Origin: Deltaproteobacteria bacterium
Lineage (GTDB): Bacteria > Bacillota > Desulfotomaculia > Desulfotomaculales > JAGUVT01
Length of the DNA: 35,268 nucleotides
NCBI GenBank assembly: GCA_020062745.1
Contig: JAGUVT010000109.1
Span: 1-35,268 of the forward strand
Direction: 5' to 3'
A program made the position numbers and the translations under genes. The notes below the pieces were generated by a model. The model was not told where the DNA came from. It saw only the letters and a list, made by a program, of their open reading frames with translations, and ran no database searches. Shown in pieces: positions 6,644-12,979 of the stretch (positions within the stretch are counted from its first letter, which is position 1; each line of letters starts with the position of its first letter).

Positions 6644-7921
6644 TCAGCGGCACGGGCGCCCGGCTGCCGACCGCCCGGCCACCCAGCCGGTGGAAAAAGC
6701 AATCTGCATGTTAAATCCGCCGGTATAGGCGTCCACATCCATGACCTCGCCGGCAAAATACAGGCCTTCCGCCAGACGCGAGGCCATGGTGCGGGGATCG
6801 ATCCCGTCCACGCTCACGCCGCCGACGGTAACCATTGCTTCAGACAGCGGGCGGGTGCCGGTCACAGCCAGCGGCAGATACTTAATCAAACGGGCGACTT
6901 TACGCCAGGTTTCTTTTCCTGCCTGTCCGGCCTTCCCGTGCTGAGCGAGCGGCAGTTTGCCGGCCTGCACGATTGCCAGCCGGCCGGGCAGAAACTGTTT
7001 TATTAAATTGAGGATGGATTTTCCGGGCTGAGCCGCGGCTGCAGACAACAATTCGCCGGCCAGGGCGTCTTCGGCAACGTCCGGCAGAACATCCGCCAGC
7101 AGGCGCAGACTGCCGCCGCCCGCGGCAGTCTGCGTCGATACCGCCCTGCTCAGCTTGAGCGCGGCCGGTCCGGAAACGCCGAAGTGAGTGAAAACAACAT
7201 CCCCTTGCTCAGCGGCAATCCTTTTGCCCTCCCCATCAAACAGGGTAAGAACAATGTCTTTCAATGACAGCCCCTGCAACTGCCCGCACAACTGCTTATC
7301 CCTGCAGCACAGCGGCGACAGACCCGGAAGCAACGGCACAATCCGGTGACCCGCCTGCTGCGCCAGTAAGTAACCGTCTCCCGTTGAGCCGGTCTGGGGG
7401 TAAGAAGCCCCGCCGGTGGCAATAATCACGGATTTACTGCGGAACACGCCCCCGCCGGCGGTACCCGCCCCCCGGCAGCGCCGGCCTGCAAACAACAACT
7501 CTGTCGCCCCGGCCCGGTAAAAAATTCTCACCCCCGCCCCCAGCAAGTATTTTTCCAGGGCCGTTACCACATCGCCGGCCCGCCCGCCGGCGGGGAAAAC
7601 CTGGCCGTGTTCCTCCTCTTTCGTACGCACTCCCAGGCTTTTAAAAAAATTAATGCAGTCGTCATTTGAAAAGCGGGACAGGGCGCCGAACAAAAATTTG
7701 CCGTTGCCGGGAATATTTTTTATAAACTCCGGCAAAGAAGCCGTATTGGTCAGGTTGCACCGGCCGCCCCCGGCAATGCTCATTTTACGCCCCGGCCGCC
7801 CGTTTTTTTCCAGCAAAGTTACTCTCGCCCCGGAAAGACTGGCGGCCGCGGCCGCAAACATGCCGGCCGGACCGCCGCCGATTACCAGCACGCCGGATAA
7901 GTCCTTACCCGCTCCGTTCAT
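6644..7921 (-). CDS. BaiN/HI0933-family NAD(P)/FAD-dependent oxidoreductase
   Basis: Flavoprotein of 425 aa. The N-terminus has the dinucleotide-binding GGGPAGMFAAAAAS motif at about residues 16-29 and then the family-specific GRPGRKMSIAGGGRCNLTN. The C-terminus carries TVGGVS...GLYFAGEVMDVDAYTGGFNMQIA, the FAD-binding end typical of the HI0933/YhiN/BaiN group. Members are annotated as aminoacetone oxidase-like or flavin reductases of bile-acid intermediates; the physiological substrate here cannot be told. The ATG at 7921 has an AAGGATG-type ribosome site. It is 33 bp downstream of the YbaK-like gene on the same strand and is probably cotranscribed with it. Confidence 0.9.
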   Translation of the reverse strand: MNGAGKDLSGVLVIGGGPAGMFAAAAASLSGARVTLLEKNGRPGRKMSIAGGGRCNLTNTASLPEFIKNIPGNGKFLFGALSRFSNDDCINFFKSLGVRTKEEEHGQVFPAGGRAGDVVTALEKYLLGAGVRIFYRAGATELLFAGRRCRGAGTAGGGVFRSKSVIIATGGASYPQTGSTGDGYLLAQQAGHRIVPLLPGLSPLCCRDKQLCGQLQGLSLKDIVLTLFDGEGKRIAAEQGDVVFTHFGVSGPAALKLSRAVSTQTAAGGGSLRLLADVLPDVAEDALAGELLSAAAAQPGKSILNLIKQFLPGRLAIVQAGKLPLAQHGKAGQAGKETWRKVARLIKYLPLAVTGTRPLSEAMVTVGGVSVDGIDPRTMASRLAEGLYFAGEVMDVDAYTGGFNMQIAFSTGWVAGRSAAGRPCR

Positions 7922-7954
7922 TAATTTGCATCCTTTTTGCTTGAGAATAATCTT

Positions 7955-8500
7955 TTACCCCAGGTCGCACAGCTCCCCTCCAGTAAACTCCAGCAACTGC
8001 TCCACCGTCACCGGAACGGCTGAATGAGGAGTGCCGGCGGCAATGTAAACCACGGGGAACCTTTTCATGCTCACGTCGATAAGAACCGGGACGGGCTGTT
8101 TAAGCGCAAAGGGGCACACCCCGCCGGGCGGAAAGCCGGTTACCTCCCGGATCGTCCCCGCATCAGGCAGTCTTACCTTGCCCGTCGCTCCCAGGTGTTT
8201 TTTCAGCTTGCTCTGATTTACCTTCACATCGCCGCTGGTGACCACCATCACCATGGAACCGTTGACGGCAAACAAAATGGTCTTGGCGATCTGGCCCGCT
8301 TCCACCCCGACCGCCCGGGCGGCCAGTTCCGCCGTATGGGTGCTTTCGTCAAACTCAAAGATCTCTATTTGATCGGATTGATCGGAAAATTGTTTTAAGT
8401 ACGCGCGCACGCGTTCAACAGGATTTATCTCTCTTCCCCCTCCCGGAGAAAGTTTCGGCGCAGTTCCGCCTTTCTCCTCCCTCCCTGAAAAGATAAACAT
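7955..8500 (-). CDS. YbaK/ProX-family aminoacyl-tRNA deacylase
   Basis: Single-domain editing protein of the YbaK/EbsC/ProX fold that hydrolyses mischarged tRNAs such as Cys-tRNA(Pro) in trans. Recognisable elements are TAELAARAVGVEAGQIAKTILF, the catalytic-lysine strand KVNQSKLKKHLG, and TGFPPGGVCPFA. The start is uncertain: the ATG at 8500 has no Shine-Dalgarno and adds about 35 low-complexity residues. A GTG lies further in, at the Val of RVRAYLKQ, about 20 nt beyond a GGAGGGGG stretch, which is too far for an ideal site. The gene is divergent from hflX and lies upstream of the BaiN-like gene. The exact editing substrate is not predictable. Confidence 0.85.
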   Translation of the reverse strand: MFIFSGREEKGGTAPKLSPGGGREINPVERVRAYLKQFSDQSDQIEIFEFDESTHTAELAARAVGVEAGQIAKTILFAVNGSMVMVVTSGDVKVNQSKLKKHLGATGKVRLPDAGTIREVTGFPPGGVCPFALKQPVPVLIDVSMKRFPVVYIAAGTPHSAVPVTVEQLLEFTGGELCDLG

Positions 8501-8536: not shown

Positions 8537-8604
8537 CGTAATAACCGGACGCTGCTTTTATGTTTACCGGGATAACTCCTGTTTATTGCCAGAAAGGAAT
8601 GCAG

Positions 8605-10401
8605 TTGGTCAAAAAGGTTTACGGAAATACCGCCGGCATGAAGAAAGCCGAACTGGAACTGCTGCAAGGCATTTACAGCCTGCAGGTGAACAAAAACGGC
8701 ATTATCCCCCTGGAAGCGGCTCAACTTCTGGCGGCCGTGTCGGGAAACAGCCGGCGCGAACTGGCCGTGCTGATCGACCGCCGGGGGAATGTAGTTTATG
8801 TGGGCGCCGGCGACGCCGACACGGCGCAACTGCAGGGGCAGGGCAGGCGCCGCGGCGAATACCGGCTCTCCGGCCTGCGCTGCATCCACACCCACCCCTC
8901 GGGGAGCGGTCTTTTAAGCCCGGCCGACTACGCCGCCATTTCGGCCATGCGTCTTGACGCCATGGTAGCCCTGGGGGTACGGGACGGTAAAATCGAGGAG
9001 GCGTACATAGCCTGCCCGGAGCCGCGGGAAGGCTCGCCGGAGCATGCCTTTCAAACCTTCGGACCCATGTCCGCCGAAGAAATGGCGGACTTCCCCCTGC
9101 TGCCGCTGCTCCGGGATATCGAGACAAAAATAAAACCCCCGGTGGCTCACGAAACAAGCGAGCACCGGGAAAGTGAAAAGGCCGTCCTGGCAGGCATCGA
9201 GAGCATGGAATCCCTGGAGGAACTGGCCCGCCTGGCGGAAACAGCCGGCGCGGCGCCCGCGGCAAAGGTGCTGCAGCAAAAAAGCAGGCCGGACGCGGCT
9301 TTTTTTATCGGTAGGGGCAAGGTAAAAGAACTGGCCCTTCTCCGGCAGAACCTGTCTGCCGAGCTGGTCATATTTGACGAAGAACTCACCCCCACCCAGA
9401 TCCGCAATCTGCAAAACGCCGCCGGCTGCCGCATTATCGACCGGACGGCGCTGATTTTGGATATTTTCGCCCGGCGTGCCCGGACCAGGGAGGGCAAGCT
9501 GCAGGTGGAACTAGCCCAGTTGAACTACCTGCTGCCCCGCCTCACCGGCATAGGAACGGAACTTTCCCGCCTGGGCGGCGGCATCGGCACCAGAGGACCC
9601 GGTGAAACCAAGCTGGAAACCGACCGCCGCCACATCCGGCGCCGCATTGAAGAACTAAACCGCGATCTGGAACAAGTGCGCCGGCACCGCAAAAAACAAC
9701 GGCAAAACCGCCGGGAGTCATCCATGCCGGTTGTTGCTCTGGTCGGATATACCAACGCCGGGAAAAGCACCCTGCTCAACGCGCTGACCGGGGCACAGGT
9801 GTTTACCGCCAACCAGATGTTCGCCACCCTGGACCCGACCACCCGCCGCCTGCAACTGCCGGACAACCAGGAAGCGCTGCTGACCGACACGGTGGGATTC
9901 ATCCGCAAGCTGCCCCACCATCTGGTGGCCGCTTTCCGCGCCACCCTGGAAGAAGTCGGGGAAGCCGACCTGCTGCTCCATGTGGCAGACGCCAGTCACG
10001 ACCGGTTCGCAGAACAGATCGAAGCGGTGGAAAGCGTATTAAAGGAACTGGGCGCCCGCGAAAAAAATACCCTCCTGGTTTTAAACAAAATAGACCGGCC
10101 GGTTGACCGCCAGGCGCTGGAAGACTTCAAAATCTCCTGCCGGCGCCAGGTGGCCGAAGTGTCCGCCAGAACCGGCACGGGGCTTGAAGAATTAAAACAA
10201 TTGATCGCCCGGCACATTGGCCGCCCGCAGCGGAAACTCAAAGGGTGGCTGCCCCACGGGCGGGCGGACCTGGTGGCCCGGCTATACCGGCATGGAGTGG
10301 TCTATGACGTAAAATACACCGAGGAAGGCATCTGGCTGGAAGCGGCAGCGGGCGACCCCCTCTGGTCGGCCGTGGCCCCTCTCCTTAAAGCCCCTTTATA
10401 A
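8605..10401 (+). CDS. hflX: HflX ribosome-associated GTPase with N-terminal JAMM-like domain
   Basis: HflX binds the 50S subunit and splits stalled ribosomes using GTP. The standard HflX body starts around residue 190 (ESMESLEELARL...FIGRGKVKEL). It continues through the coiled helices (LGGGIGTRGPGETKLE) to a G domain with GYTNAGKST (G1), DTVGF (G3) and NKID (G4). The protein is about 600 aa against roughly 420 for typical HflX. The extra N-terminus contains HTHPSGSGLLSPAD, an exact JAMM zinc-protease pattern (HxHx7SxxD), with a candidate catalytic Glu in RRELAVLIDRRG. TTG at 8605 is preferred because AAAGGA lies 6-7 nt upstream and homologous sequence begins at VYGNT. An in-frame ATG at 8560 would add 15 residues. 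The 3' end overlaps the convergent walJ by 17 bp. Confidence 0.92.
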   Translation: MVKKVYGNTAGMKKAELELLQGIYSLQVNKNGIIPLEAAQLLAAVSGNSRRELAVLIDRRGNVVYVGAGDADTAQLQGQGRRRGEYRLSGLRCIHTHPSGSGLLSPADYAAISAMRLDAMVALGVRDGKIEEAYIACPEPREGSPEHAFQTFGPMSAEEMADFPLLPLLRDIETKIKPPVAHETSEHRESEKAVLAGIESMESLEELARLAETAGAAPAAKVLQQKSRPDAAFFIGRGKVKELALLRQNLSAELVIFDEELTPTQIRNLQNAAGCRIIDRTALILDIFARRARTREGKLQVELAQLNYLLPRLTGIGTELSRLGGGIGTRGPGETKLETDRRHIRRRIEELNRDLEQVRRHRKKQRQNRRESSMPVVALVGYTNAGKSTLLNALTGAQVFTANQMFATLDPTTRRLQLPDNQEALLTDTVGFIRKLPHHLVAAFRATLEEVGEADLLLHVADASHDRFAEQIEAVESVLKELGAREKNTLLVLNKIDRPVDRQALEDFKISCRRQVAEVSARTGTGLEELKQLIARHIGRPQRKLKGWLPHGRADLVARLYRHGVVYDVKYTEEGIWLEAAAGDPLWSAVAPLLKAPL

Positions 10402-11170
10402 GAACATCCGACCAAAGCCCCGGTTCCCGGGAGGGCGCGCTCGCCAGGGCGACCTCCGGCTTCAGGCGCCGCCTGGCACTGCTGAGCGCCCTGGCCGGTT
10501 CGTTGTCGTCTTCACTGAGGTGTCCCAGCACCACCAGCCGGCAGTTTCCCTGCCCGATGGACCGCAGGGCACGGCCGCACTGATCATTGGACAGGTGGCC
10601 GGCCGGACCGAGATTGCGCCGTATCACATGACGCGGTTTCGCAGAGCGTCCGTACATTTCAACATCGTGGTTGGACTCTATGTACAAATAATCAAGAAAC
10701 CGGAAAGTACGCAGGCAGTTCTCCGGAACAAAGCCGGTATCGGTGATGAACCCCATTCTTTCCCCATTGCTGCTGATAATGAACCCCACCGTCTCCACGT
10801 CGTGGGACAACCTGAAGGGCGTCACCGCCATGCCGCCGATATTTTTCTTCACCCGCTCGTCCAAAACCTCAAACGCGGGATATTCGTCGAAACAATAACT
10901 TCCGGTGAGTTCTTTCAACACGGCGGCGGTGGAACATACAGGAACATTCCTTTCCTTGAGGAAAAACCGGAGGCCGTAAACGTGGTCGGTGTGACAATGG
11001 GTGACCAAAACCGCGTCGATATCGCCCGGCGAAAGCCCCACCCCGGCGAGAAACGGCTTTAGATCCCTTTTTCTGAGGCCGCAGTCAATCAACAGGCAGG
11101 TGTTTTCATCCCGGACAACTACACTGTTGGCATAGCTGCACGACGACAGGCTGCAGAACTTTAATCTCAA
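10385..11170 (-). CDS. walJ: WalJ/YycJ-like MBL-fold metallo-hydrolase
   Basis: A 261-aa metallo-beta-lactamase fold protein with the zinc-binding motif THCHTDHVYG near residues 57-66. It has the SLSSCSYANS N-terminus typical of the YycJ/WalJ group, and later His/Asp ligands are seen in ITDTGF and ESNHDVEMY. YycJ proteins are exonuclease-like enzymes often linked to the WalRK two-component locus; here there is no walRK neighbour. The start is TTG at 11170 with GGGGGA 8 nt upstream. The gene converges on hflX with a 17-bp overlap, so the two transcripts are antisense at their ends. The symbol is by family resemblance. Confidence 0.8.
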   Translation of the reverse strand: MRLKFCSLSSCSYANSVVVRDENTCLLIDCGLRKRDLKPFLAGVGLSPGDIDAVLVTHCHTDHVYGLRFFLKERNVPVCSTAAVLKELTGSYCFDEYPAFEVLDERVKKNIGGMAVTPFRLSHDVETVGFIISSNGERMGFITDTGFVPENCLRTFRFLDYLYIESNHDVEMYGRSAKPRHVIRRNLGPAGHLSNDQCGRALRSIGQGNCRLVVLGHLSEDDNEPARALSSARRRLKPEVALASAPSREPGLWSDVLIKGL

Positions 11171-11335
11171 AAGTCAATCCCCCTGAATCAATCTCCAAGC
11201 ATATTACTTAGACGATTCAAGGAGGAATTCCTTCCCATGCCCGGCGAATAATTAATGAAAGAACAGGTCAATTCTCCTGTTCAACAGGGTACTGCCGTGC
11301 ATGACGGACTGCCACTATGTTAACGGTTTTTCCTT

Positions 11336-11355
11336 TATATACGGATATATACGGA
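11336..11355. repeat. Two tandem copies of TATATACGGA upstream of the exporter
   Basis: A perfect 10-bp direct duplication 104 bp before the MFS gene. One helical turn spacing would put both copies on the same face of DNA, as for a regulator binding site. The rest of 11171-11458 shows no convincing gene, only 4- and 22-codon frames with poor support. Confidence 0.4.
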
Positions 11356-11458
11356 TTTTCATGTTTCAGAGGCTTTTATCAGTTTTTTTCTGGCCTGTTC
11401 GCTCGCTAAATCGGTACCAATGTCCATTTTAAAGGAATAATCCGGCCGGGATAGAATT

Positions 11459-12979
11459 ATGAATCTATTAATGAATGAAACACGCAGTGAAGAACAACCG
11501 GAAAACATACAGACCAATCGCACTTTAGTCGTCATCGCCGTTATGCTGGGAACGTTTCTGGCCGCCCTGGACGTAACCATTGTGGGTACGGCCATGCCCA
11601 CCATCATCGGCCGCCTCGGCGGAATGTCCCTGTTCCCGTGGGTTTTCTCCGCCTACCTGCTAACTTATACTGTCACTACACCCATCTATGGCAAACTGGC
11701 CGATCTTTTTGGACGCCGGGTGGTTTATGCCTGGGGAACAGGCATTTTTCTTCTGGGATCGGTCCTGTGCGGGTTGTCAGAAAATATGATCCAACTGATC
11801 GTTTTTCGAACCGTTCAGGGTCTGGGGGCCGGAGCGGTACTGCCGGTAACCATCACCATTATCGGCGACATTTTCACCCTGGAAGAAAGAGGCCGGATGC
11901 AGGGGTTATTCAGCAGCGTCTGGGGAGTGTCGGCTATTATCGGCCCGGCCCTGGGCGGCGTTATTGTCGATTATCTGGACTGGCGCTGGATTTTTTACCT
12001 CAACCTGCCTATCGGCATAGTTTCCATCCTGATGCTGCTTTTTTATCTGGAGGAAAGAAAGCCTTCCGGCCGTTTGCAACTGGACTACCCGGGCTCGACT
12101 ACCCTGATGTTGGGGGTAAGCGCCTTGCTGCTGGCCCTTCTCCAGGGCGGAACCGCCCACTCCTGGAGTTCGCCTTTCATATTGACAATGTTTTTGCTGG
12201 CTACGGGATTTTTACTCGCTTTCATCAAAATAGAATCAAGGGCGCTGGAACCAATACTGCCGCTAACCCTGTTCCAAAATCGTATAATCTCCATCTCGGT
12301 GGCCGTCAACTTTACAGCCGGCATGGTACTGATTGGCGTTTCTTCATATGTACCCCTTTTCGTCCAGGGAGTATCAGGAGGAACGGCGGTCAATGCCGGC
12401 GCGGCCCTGGCGCCGATGTCAATCGGCTGGCCCCTGGGCAGCATTGTGGGAGGCCGGTTCCTGCTGCGGGTGGGCTATAAAAAAATGGCTGTTCTGGGTA
12501 TGGCCCTGCAGGTTGTCGCCGCTGTGCTGCTCCTTACCCTTGGTCCTGCCTCAACCCGTGCTTTCATAGCCGCCACGACCTTTACCATGGGGCTGGGGCT
12601 GGGTTTTTGCACCACGGCGCTGATCGTTATGGTGCAGGCAGTGGTGGAGTGGAACCGCCGCGGAGTAGCTACGGCCATAGTCCAGTTCATGCGCACCCTC
12701 GGCGCAACTTTGGGCATCGCGGTTACCGGCACGGCGCTCAACAGCCTGCTGGTATCCCGGATCAACCAGCAGACGGGCGGCCGGGGTACGGAAGCAATTT
12801 CTATAGTTAACCGCCTGATGGACCCCCTGCAGCGCCACCTGCTCCCACCGGAGCAAATCGTACCTTTAAAAACAGCCCTGGCGGCAGCAATTCACGGCAG
12901 CTTCTGGCTTGTCCTAGCCGCAGCTGCAGTCGGGCTGGCATGTGTTTGTCTTCTGCCTGCCAAACCTCCGGAGGAATAA
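11459..12979 (+). CDS. DHA2-family MFS exporter (EmrB/QacA type), 14 TM
   Basis: Drug:proton antiporter of 506 aa in the cytoplasmic membrane. The first TM holds TFLAALDVTIVGTAMPTI, the DHA2 signature. Motif A is GKLADLFGRR between TM2 and TM3, and motif C is GPALGGVIVDYLDWRWIFY near residue 160. Length and hydrophobic periodicity fit 14 membrane spans. Start codons at 11459 and 11471 (ATG) are both possible; the Shine-Dalgarno is weak. A 10-bp tandem repeat lies in its leader. No adjacent TetR/MarR regulator or membrane-fusion protein is present, so the substrate is unknown. Confidence 0.92.
   Translation: MNLLMNETRSEEQPENIQTNRTLVVIAVMLGTFLAALDVTIVGTAMPTIIGRLGGMSLFPWVFSAYLLTYTVTTPIYGKLADLFGRRVVYAWGTGIFLLGSVLCGLSENMIQLIVFRTVQGLGAGAVLPVTITIIGDIFTLEERGRMQGLFSSVWGVSAIIGPALGGVIVDYLDWRWIFYLNLPIGIVSILMLLFYLEERKPSGRLQLDYPGSTTLMLGVSALLLALLQGGTAHSWSSPFILTMFLLATGFLLAFIKIESRALEPILPLTLFQNRIISISVAVNFTAGMVLIGVSSYVPLFVQGVSGGTAVNAGAALAPMSIGWPLGSIVGGRFLLRVGYKKMAVLGMALQVVAAVLLLTLGPASTRAFIAATTFTMGLGLGFCTTALIVMVQAVVEWNRRGVATAIVQFMRTLGATLGIAVTGTALNSLLVSRINQQTGGRGTEAISIVNRLMDPLQRHLLPPEQIVPLKTALAAAIHGSFWLVLAAAAVGLACVCLLPAKPPEE

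Follow-up and report, generated by a model that had tools for sequence, protein, structure and literature searches.

The window, the whole 35,268-nucleotide stretch of DNA analysed here, encodes what appears to be an HflX variant that carries a RadC-like JAMM domain at its N-terminus and that has apparently not been described before. HflX rescues ribosomes and is widely conserved, and it has been studied mainly in species in which it lacks the JAMM domain. With the HflX proteins of E. coli, Listeria and Mycobacterium the variant shares all of the core domains and the GTPase motifs; it differs from them in having about 190 extra N-terminal residues. By comparison, the mycobacterial extension comprises only 39–58 residues according to a 2025 review, whose consulted passages also note N-terminal extensions of HflX in several Clostridium species and identify no domain in them (PMC12493154). 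A survey of prokaryotic JAB and ubiquitin-like domains leaves HflX unmentioned (PMC1779556). Our own full-text literature search, conducted at the level of titles and hit counts and with subscription journals mostly outside its reach, returned no apparent description of the fusion. The fusion, the family of the domain, its intact metal-site residues, its predicted fold and its spread were all computed.

The gene lies on the forward strand, as do all of its features given below, in an open frame (8560–10401) that encodes 613 amino acids when counted from its first ATG. Based on this frame, the TIGR03156 match, the ribosome-binding site and the relatives, we place the gene at 8605–10401, stop codon included, which yields a protein of 598 residues starting at TTG 8605. 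That start is plausible because a probable ribosome-binding site, AGAAAGGA (8591–8598, found by inspection), ends six bases upstream and because the N-termini of the relatives fall at approximately this point; the sequence-only reading had put the start of the gene at the same position. ATG 8599 and ATG 8560 are alternative starts, and residues are numbered here with M1 at 8599.

The C-terminal two thirds of the protein is an ordinary, complete HflX. The HflX equivalog TIGR03156 scored 485.6 bits (cut-off 216.75), with the HflX match beginning at about residue 216 of the open frame as counted from 8560, and PF13167, PF16360 and PF01926 all scored above their cut-offs in a Pfam scan. These matches define the HflX core (9175–10398): an N-terminal domain, a helical middle region, the GTPase and a C-terminal part. 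The GTPase motifs GYTNAGKS, DTVGF and NKxD are all there. The first of these, the G1/P-loop, occupies 9745–9768, and its residues G383, Y384, T385, N386, G388, K389 and S390 are invariant in our alignment A3.

What, then, is the extra N-terminal stretch? We consider its membership in the JAMM superfamily to be well supported, given the invariant full motif, the Prok-JAB and RadC matches of its family, a RadC profile alignment that includes the Glu, and a confident predicted fold; all of these agree with the JAMM metallopeptidase-like domain that the sequence-only reading had proposed. The stretch HTHPSGSGLLSPAD is an exact HxHx7SxxD pattern. It occurs once in the protein, and the pattern arose by chance in 42 of 100,000 shuffles of that protein. 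The Glu in RRELAVLIDRRG lies 43 residues N-terminal of the first His, so that the full motif is E-x42-HxHx7SxxD. Our first alignment held 30 sequences from the same phylum; a second, of 80 rows, held the source protein, 78 loci from a collection of 84,980 species and one contig from a viral collection. In the latter, E54 (8758–8760; the putative catalytic Glu), H97-T98-H99 (8887–8895; the two His being putative metal ligands), S107 (8917–8919) and D110 (8926–8928; a putative third metal ligand) are invariant, the median column conservation being 41%, and P100 is kept in 79 of the 80 rows.

Searched as a single sequence, the extra ~190 residues matched nothing in Pfam, NCBIfam or the PDB sequences, and a family alignment was needed for this reason; the domain itself has no annotation in Pfam or NCBIfam. 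Among the 30 relatives, 17 matched Prok-JAB (PF14464; best 5.7e-5) and 12 matched RadC (PF04002; best 6.4e-4). Most of these matches were weak, and those to Prok-JAB were below the Pfam curated cut-off where scores were shown. A JAB-profile match, the lack of which the sequence-only reading had named as a refutation, was obtained for members of the family but not for the source protein by itself. When the family profile was compared with the PDB, AMSH-LP and Sst2 were aligned at HTHP...SSVD (E 0.002–0.007). Using hhalign, we aligned the domain family to 15 RadC proteins with a probability of 81.7 (E 1.1e-5), as opposed to 0.1 in the reversed-alignment control. Inspection of that alignment places E54 on the Glu of the RadC DREHF motif, and the HxH and the Asp on their counterparts. 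Against Prok-JAB, only the motif was aligned, and the probability was 1.7; by profile, RadC is thus the nearer relative.

The kinship with RadC has limits. RadC has the HxHPSG...S..D motif and a correspondingly placed Glu in common with the domain, and it gave the best profile-profile match; however, the HNHP of its HNHPSG motif, to whose NHPSG part the sequence-only reading had likened this domain, is replaced by HTHP in 79 of the 80 rows. The source protein also lacks the RadC N-terminal family, and its domain precedes HflX, to which it is always fused. We would accordingly not assign it to RadC itself, and the profiles suggest the description RadC-like JAB domain. The source genome encodes three RadC-like proteins with HNHPSG or HNHPAG motifs (L188, L190 and L191), one of which is short (a 159-amino-acid frame).

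The predicted structure points in the same direction. An AlphaFold2 model of the domain had a mean pLDDT of 86.5 and a pTM of 0.80, and its order of secondary-structure elements is consistent with the clustering of a JAMM metal site. We place the domain at residues 32–177 (8692–9129): the structural matches span residues 32–169, and the secondary structure closes with a helix at 167–177. A structural aligner was run on the PDB chains that Foldseek ranked at the top; among the matches listed, almost all were JAMM/MPN proteins and most were deubiquitinases. The best of those listed was PfJAMM1 (Z 7.5 over 113 residues, rmsd 3.6), and others were RadC (Z 6.6), Rpn11, AMSH, BRCC36, CSN5 and AF2198. 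An EMC subunit and Prp8 MPN domains were also among the matches that the PDB profile comparison and the structural aligner gave between them. Z-scores below 8 fall in the tool's warning range and would not be decisive alone; for this predicted fold, the uniform agreement on JAMM/MPN proteins weighs more, since that superfamily is the only one to which the motif points. Foldseek itself gave weak E-values against the PDB (best 7e-3) and matched proteins annotated as RadC or MPN among viral models at E 1e-4 to 1e-5. With the JAMM/MPN+ isopeptidases (AMSH, Rpn11, CSN5, PfJAMM1 and the bacterial BubCD) the domain shares the complete E-HxHx7SxxD motif and the predicted fold; unlike them, it is joined to a ribosome-associated GTPase, and no ubiquitin-like partner was found nearby.

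The fusion is not a peculiarity of the source genome. In a sample of 299 genomes of the phylum, 228 of which had an HflX above the cut-off, the domain profile matched 55. Fifty-four of these matches were in HflX-sized frames, and in all 54 genomes the domain was on HflX; the 55th (239 amino acids, E 2.5e-4) is probably a RadC, judging from its length. Roughly one in four of the sampled genomes with HflX has the domain, and most sampled HflX proteins are without it, also within the source's order, where it occurred in 5 of 60 genomes (the source genome included) and the others that were read had plain HflX. Named carriers include Desulfotomaculum, Desulfoscipio, Sporotomaculum, Sporomusa, Thermincola, Caloramator, Acetivibrio and Lutispora. 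Outside the phylum, the domain and its complete motif occur in a Fusobacterium animalis protein (WP_016339937.1) whose annotation says no more than GTPase HflX. On a tree of HflX cores the domain label was strongly clustered (12 changes vs. 35 in shuffles); the backbone is unresolved, and thus one origin followed by losses is not separable from several gains or transfers.

Several records deserve separate mention. Phages gave no match to the domain. A 15-kb IMG/VR contig (L111) carries a full JAMM-HflX and is probably host DNA filed as viral. Fusobacterium hflX was also found on two plasmid-labelled records, L198 (NZ_CP077186.1) and L199 (NZ_CP084075.1), of 219 kb and 2.1 Mb; the 2.1-Mb record is chromosome-sized and probably mislabelled. 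In four genomes (G049, G088, G123 and G205), HflX lies in frames of 740–830 amino acids that have no JAMM profile match, and these may merely reflect a long GC-rich open frame upstream.

The complete E/H/H/S/D set was present in 124 of 130 aligned N-terminal domains, and not one of the 130 was short of exactly one of the five residues. The six departing domains form two clusters when placed on the HflX tree: in a group of four (L112, L116, L122 and L128) nearly the whole metal site is gone, and in a group of two (L144 and L145) the HxH is lost. R61 and G63 are among the further residues typical of the family that these degenerate domains still hold. We regard all six as natural pseudo-enzymes, i.e., HflX proteins with a JAMM-like N-terminal domain minus metal-site residues; the profile match of L122 (genome G177) also spans one stop codon. 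The loss of several residues at once from a domain that is itself kept argues for a real metal site and for a second role independent of it. This pattern suits a functional site in a domain that may be worth keeping without one, and the lineages with the domain but without the site indicate that catalysis would not be the domain's only use.

The genomic surroundings offered no clue to a substrate: no conserved neighbour pointing to one was found in 80 loci. The commonest neighbour was a gene for a PLP enzyme directly after hflX (19 of the 80), and some loci had SpoVK-, Hfq- and MiaA-like genes upstream, all as judged by reading the sequences rather than by profile. These surroundings are those of an ordinary clostridial hflX locus. 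In the window, the genes flanking JAMM-HflX are on the opposite strand. The neighbours at 6644–8500 (reverse strand) and 10385–12979 encode an aminoacetone-oxidase-type flavoprotein, a YbaK-type tRNA deacylase, an MBL-fold hydrolase and, judged by reading only, an MFS-like transporter. A search near JAMM-HflX for a ubiquitin-like partner found none. The source genome does hold ThiS-family proteins, which are common and hence uninformative, and RqcH, which is likewise uninformative.

How might such a protein work? Our leading proposal, to which we give about an even chance, is that a complete, ribosome-splitting HflX GTPase carries on a flexible tether of ~15 residues an active RadC-like JAMM zinc metallohydrolase, which cuts a peptide or isopeptide bond at the A-site side of the ribosome. 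The linker (residues 178–192; 9130–9174) is probably flexible: in the full-length model it separates the JAMM domain from the first HflX strand, and pLDDT drops below 50 at residues 183–189. HflX is known to bind the intersubunit face and to split 70S ribosomes that have stalled as well as 100S ribosomes in hibernation (PMC6912228). In the 2025 review, the mycobacterial N-terminal extension is located at uL16 and helix 38 and extends towards H69–H71 (PMC12493154). In our scheme, the HflX part acts as is established for HflX, docking on the intersubunit face of 70S ribosomes that are stalled or hibernating and splitting them. If clostridial HflX docks as its mycobacterial counterpart does, the JAMM domain would be held close to uL16 and 23S helix 38, on the A-site side of the 50S subunit. 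There it would most likely cleave an exposed protein at a peptide or isopeptide bond, either before or after splitting; candidate targets would be a hibernation or rescue factor, the tail of a ribosomal protein or a nascent chain that bears a modification. Metal binding, catalysis, ribosome position and substrate are the parts of this scheme that we infer. The processing of something at stalled ribosomes, as suggested from the sequence at the start, would be a plausible function.

A possible but clearly less probable explanation is that the domain serves chiefly for binding or positioning, so as to anchor HflX on the ribosome or tune it there, with a metal that is structural or sensing instead of catalytic. 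MPN-minus subunits of eIF3 or EMC exemplify such modules. The two lineages that retained the domain after losing metal-site residues fit this explanation, as do the EMC and Prp8 domains among the matches. So does the effect of the unrelated, short extension of mycobacterial HflX, which, according to the same 2025 review, disorders rRNA and improves splitting (PMC12493154). What tells against it is E54, which is conserved together with the H/H/S/D residues in all but the six degenerate domains. A second-shell Glu at this position is required for catalysis but not for a purely structural metal.

We think it unlikely that the domain, as an active metallohydrolase, is no peptidase and instead hydrolyses some other kind of bond at the ribosome, for example that of a tRNA ester, of a nucleic acid or of a small adduct. 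Its nearest relative by profile is RadC, whose chemistry is, to our knowledge, not established, and this leaves room for such a reaction, as does the reach of HflX to the peptidyl transferase centre (PMC6912228). Yet the structural matches listed were mostly deubiquitinases. All JAMM enzymes with a known reaction, so far as we are aware, cut peptide or isopeptide bonds.

Far less probable is that the domain takes the place of Prp, a cysteine protease by which many Bacillota trim their ribosomal protein bL27. The idea drew on the position of bL27 near the peptidyl transferase centre and on the failure to find Prp in the source genome; indeed, Prp (PF04327) was found in none of the 10 sampled genomes of the source's order (G000 and nine others), compared with 229 of 299 in the phylum. 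However, Prp is as frequent with the domain (43 of 54 genomes) as in the sample at large (186 of the 245 other genomes; Fisher p 0.72), and we rejected this candidate. Finally, a chance motif match or an assembly or gene-calling artefact, for which only the missing JAB match of the source protein alone could speak, is refuted by the recurrence of the fusion, with no stops between its parts, in more than 50 genomes of the phylum sample and at 78 loci of the second collection, together with the invariant motif and the confident fold.

We return to the proposal of an active JAMM hydrolase joined to HflX. The HflX of many clostridia and of Fusobacterium has an unannotated, enzyme-like front domain, which suggests a cutting step at stalled ribosomes. 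Because the metal site is all-or-none and natural pseudo-enzymes exist, the question of activity is directly testable. We also venture, as a long shot, that in clostridia and fusobacteria the stalled or hibernating ribosomes, or the factors that they bind, bear a covalent protein modification so far unrecognised, and that JAMM-HflX is the enzyme that deconjugates or processes it; if true, this would be a bacterial counterpart of ribosome-linked deubiquitination inside a splitting factor. We know of no model of ribosome rescue that includes a proteolytic step coupled to splitting. Were the site active, these bacteria would have such a step physically coupled to the splitting of the ribosome.
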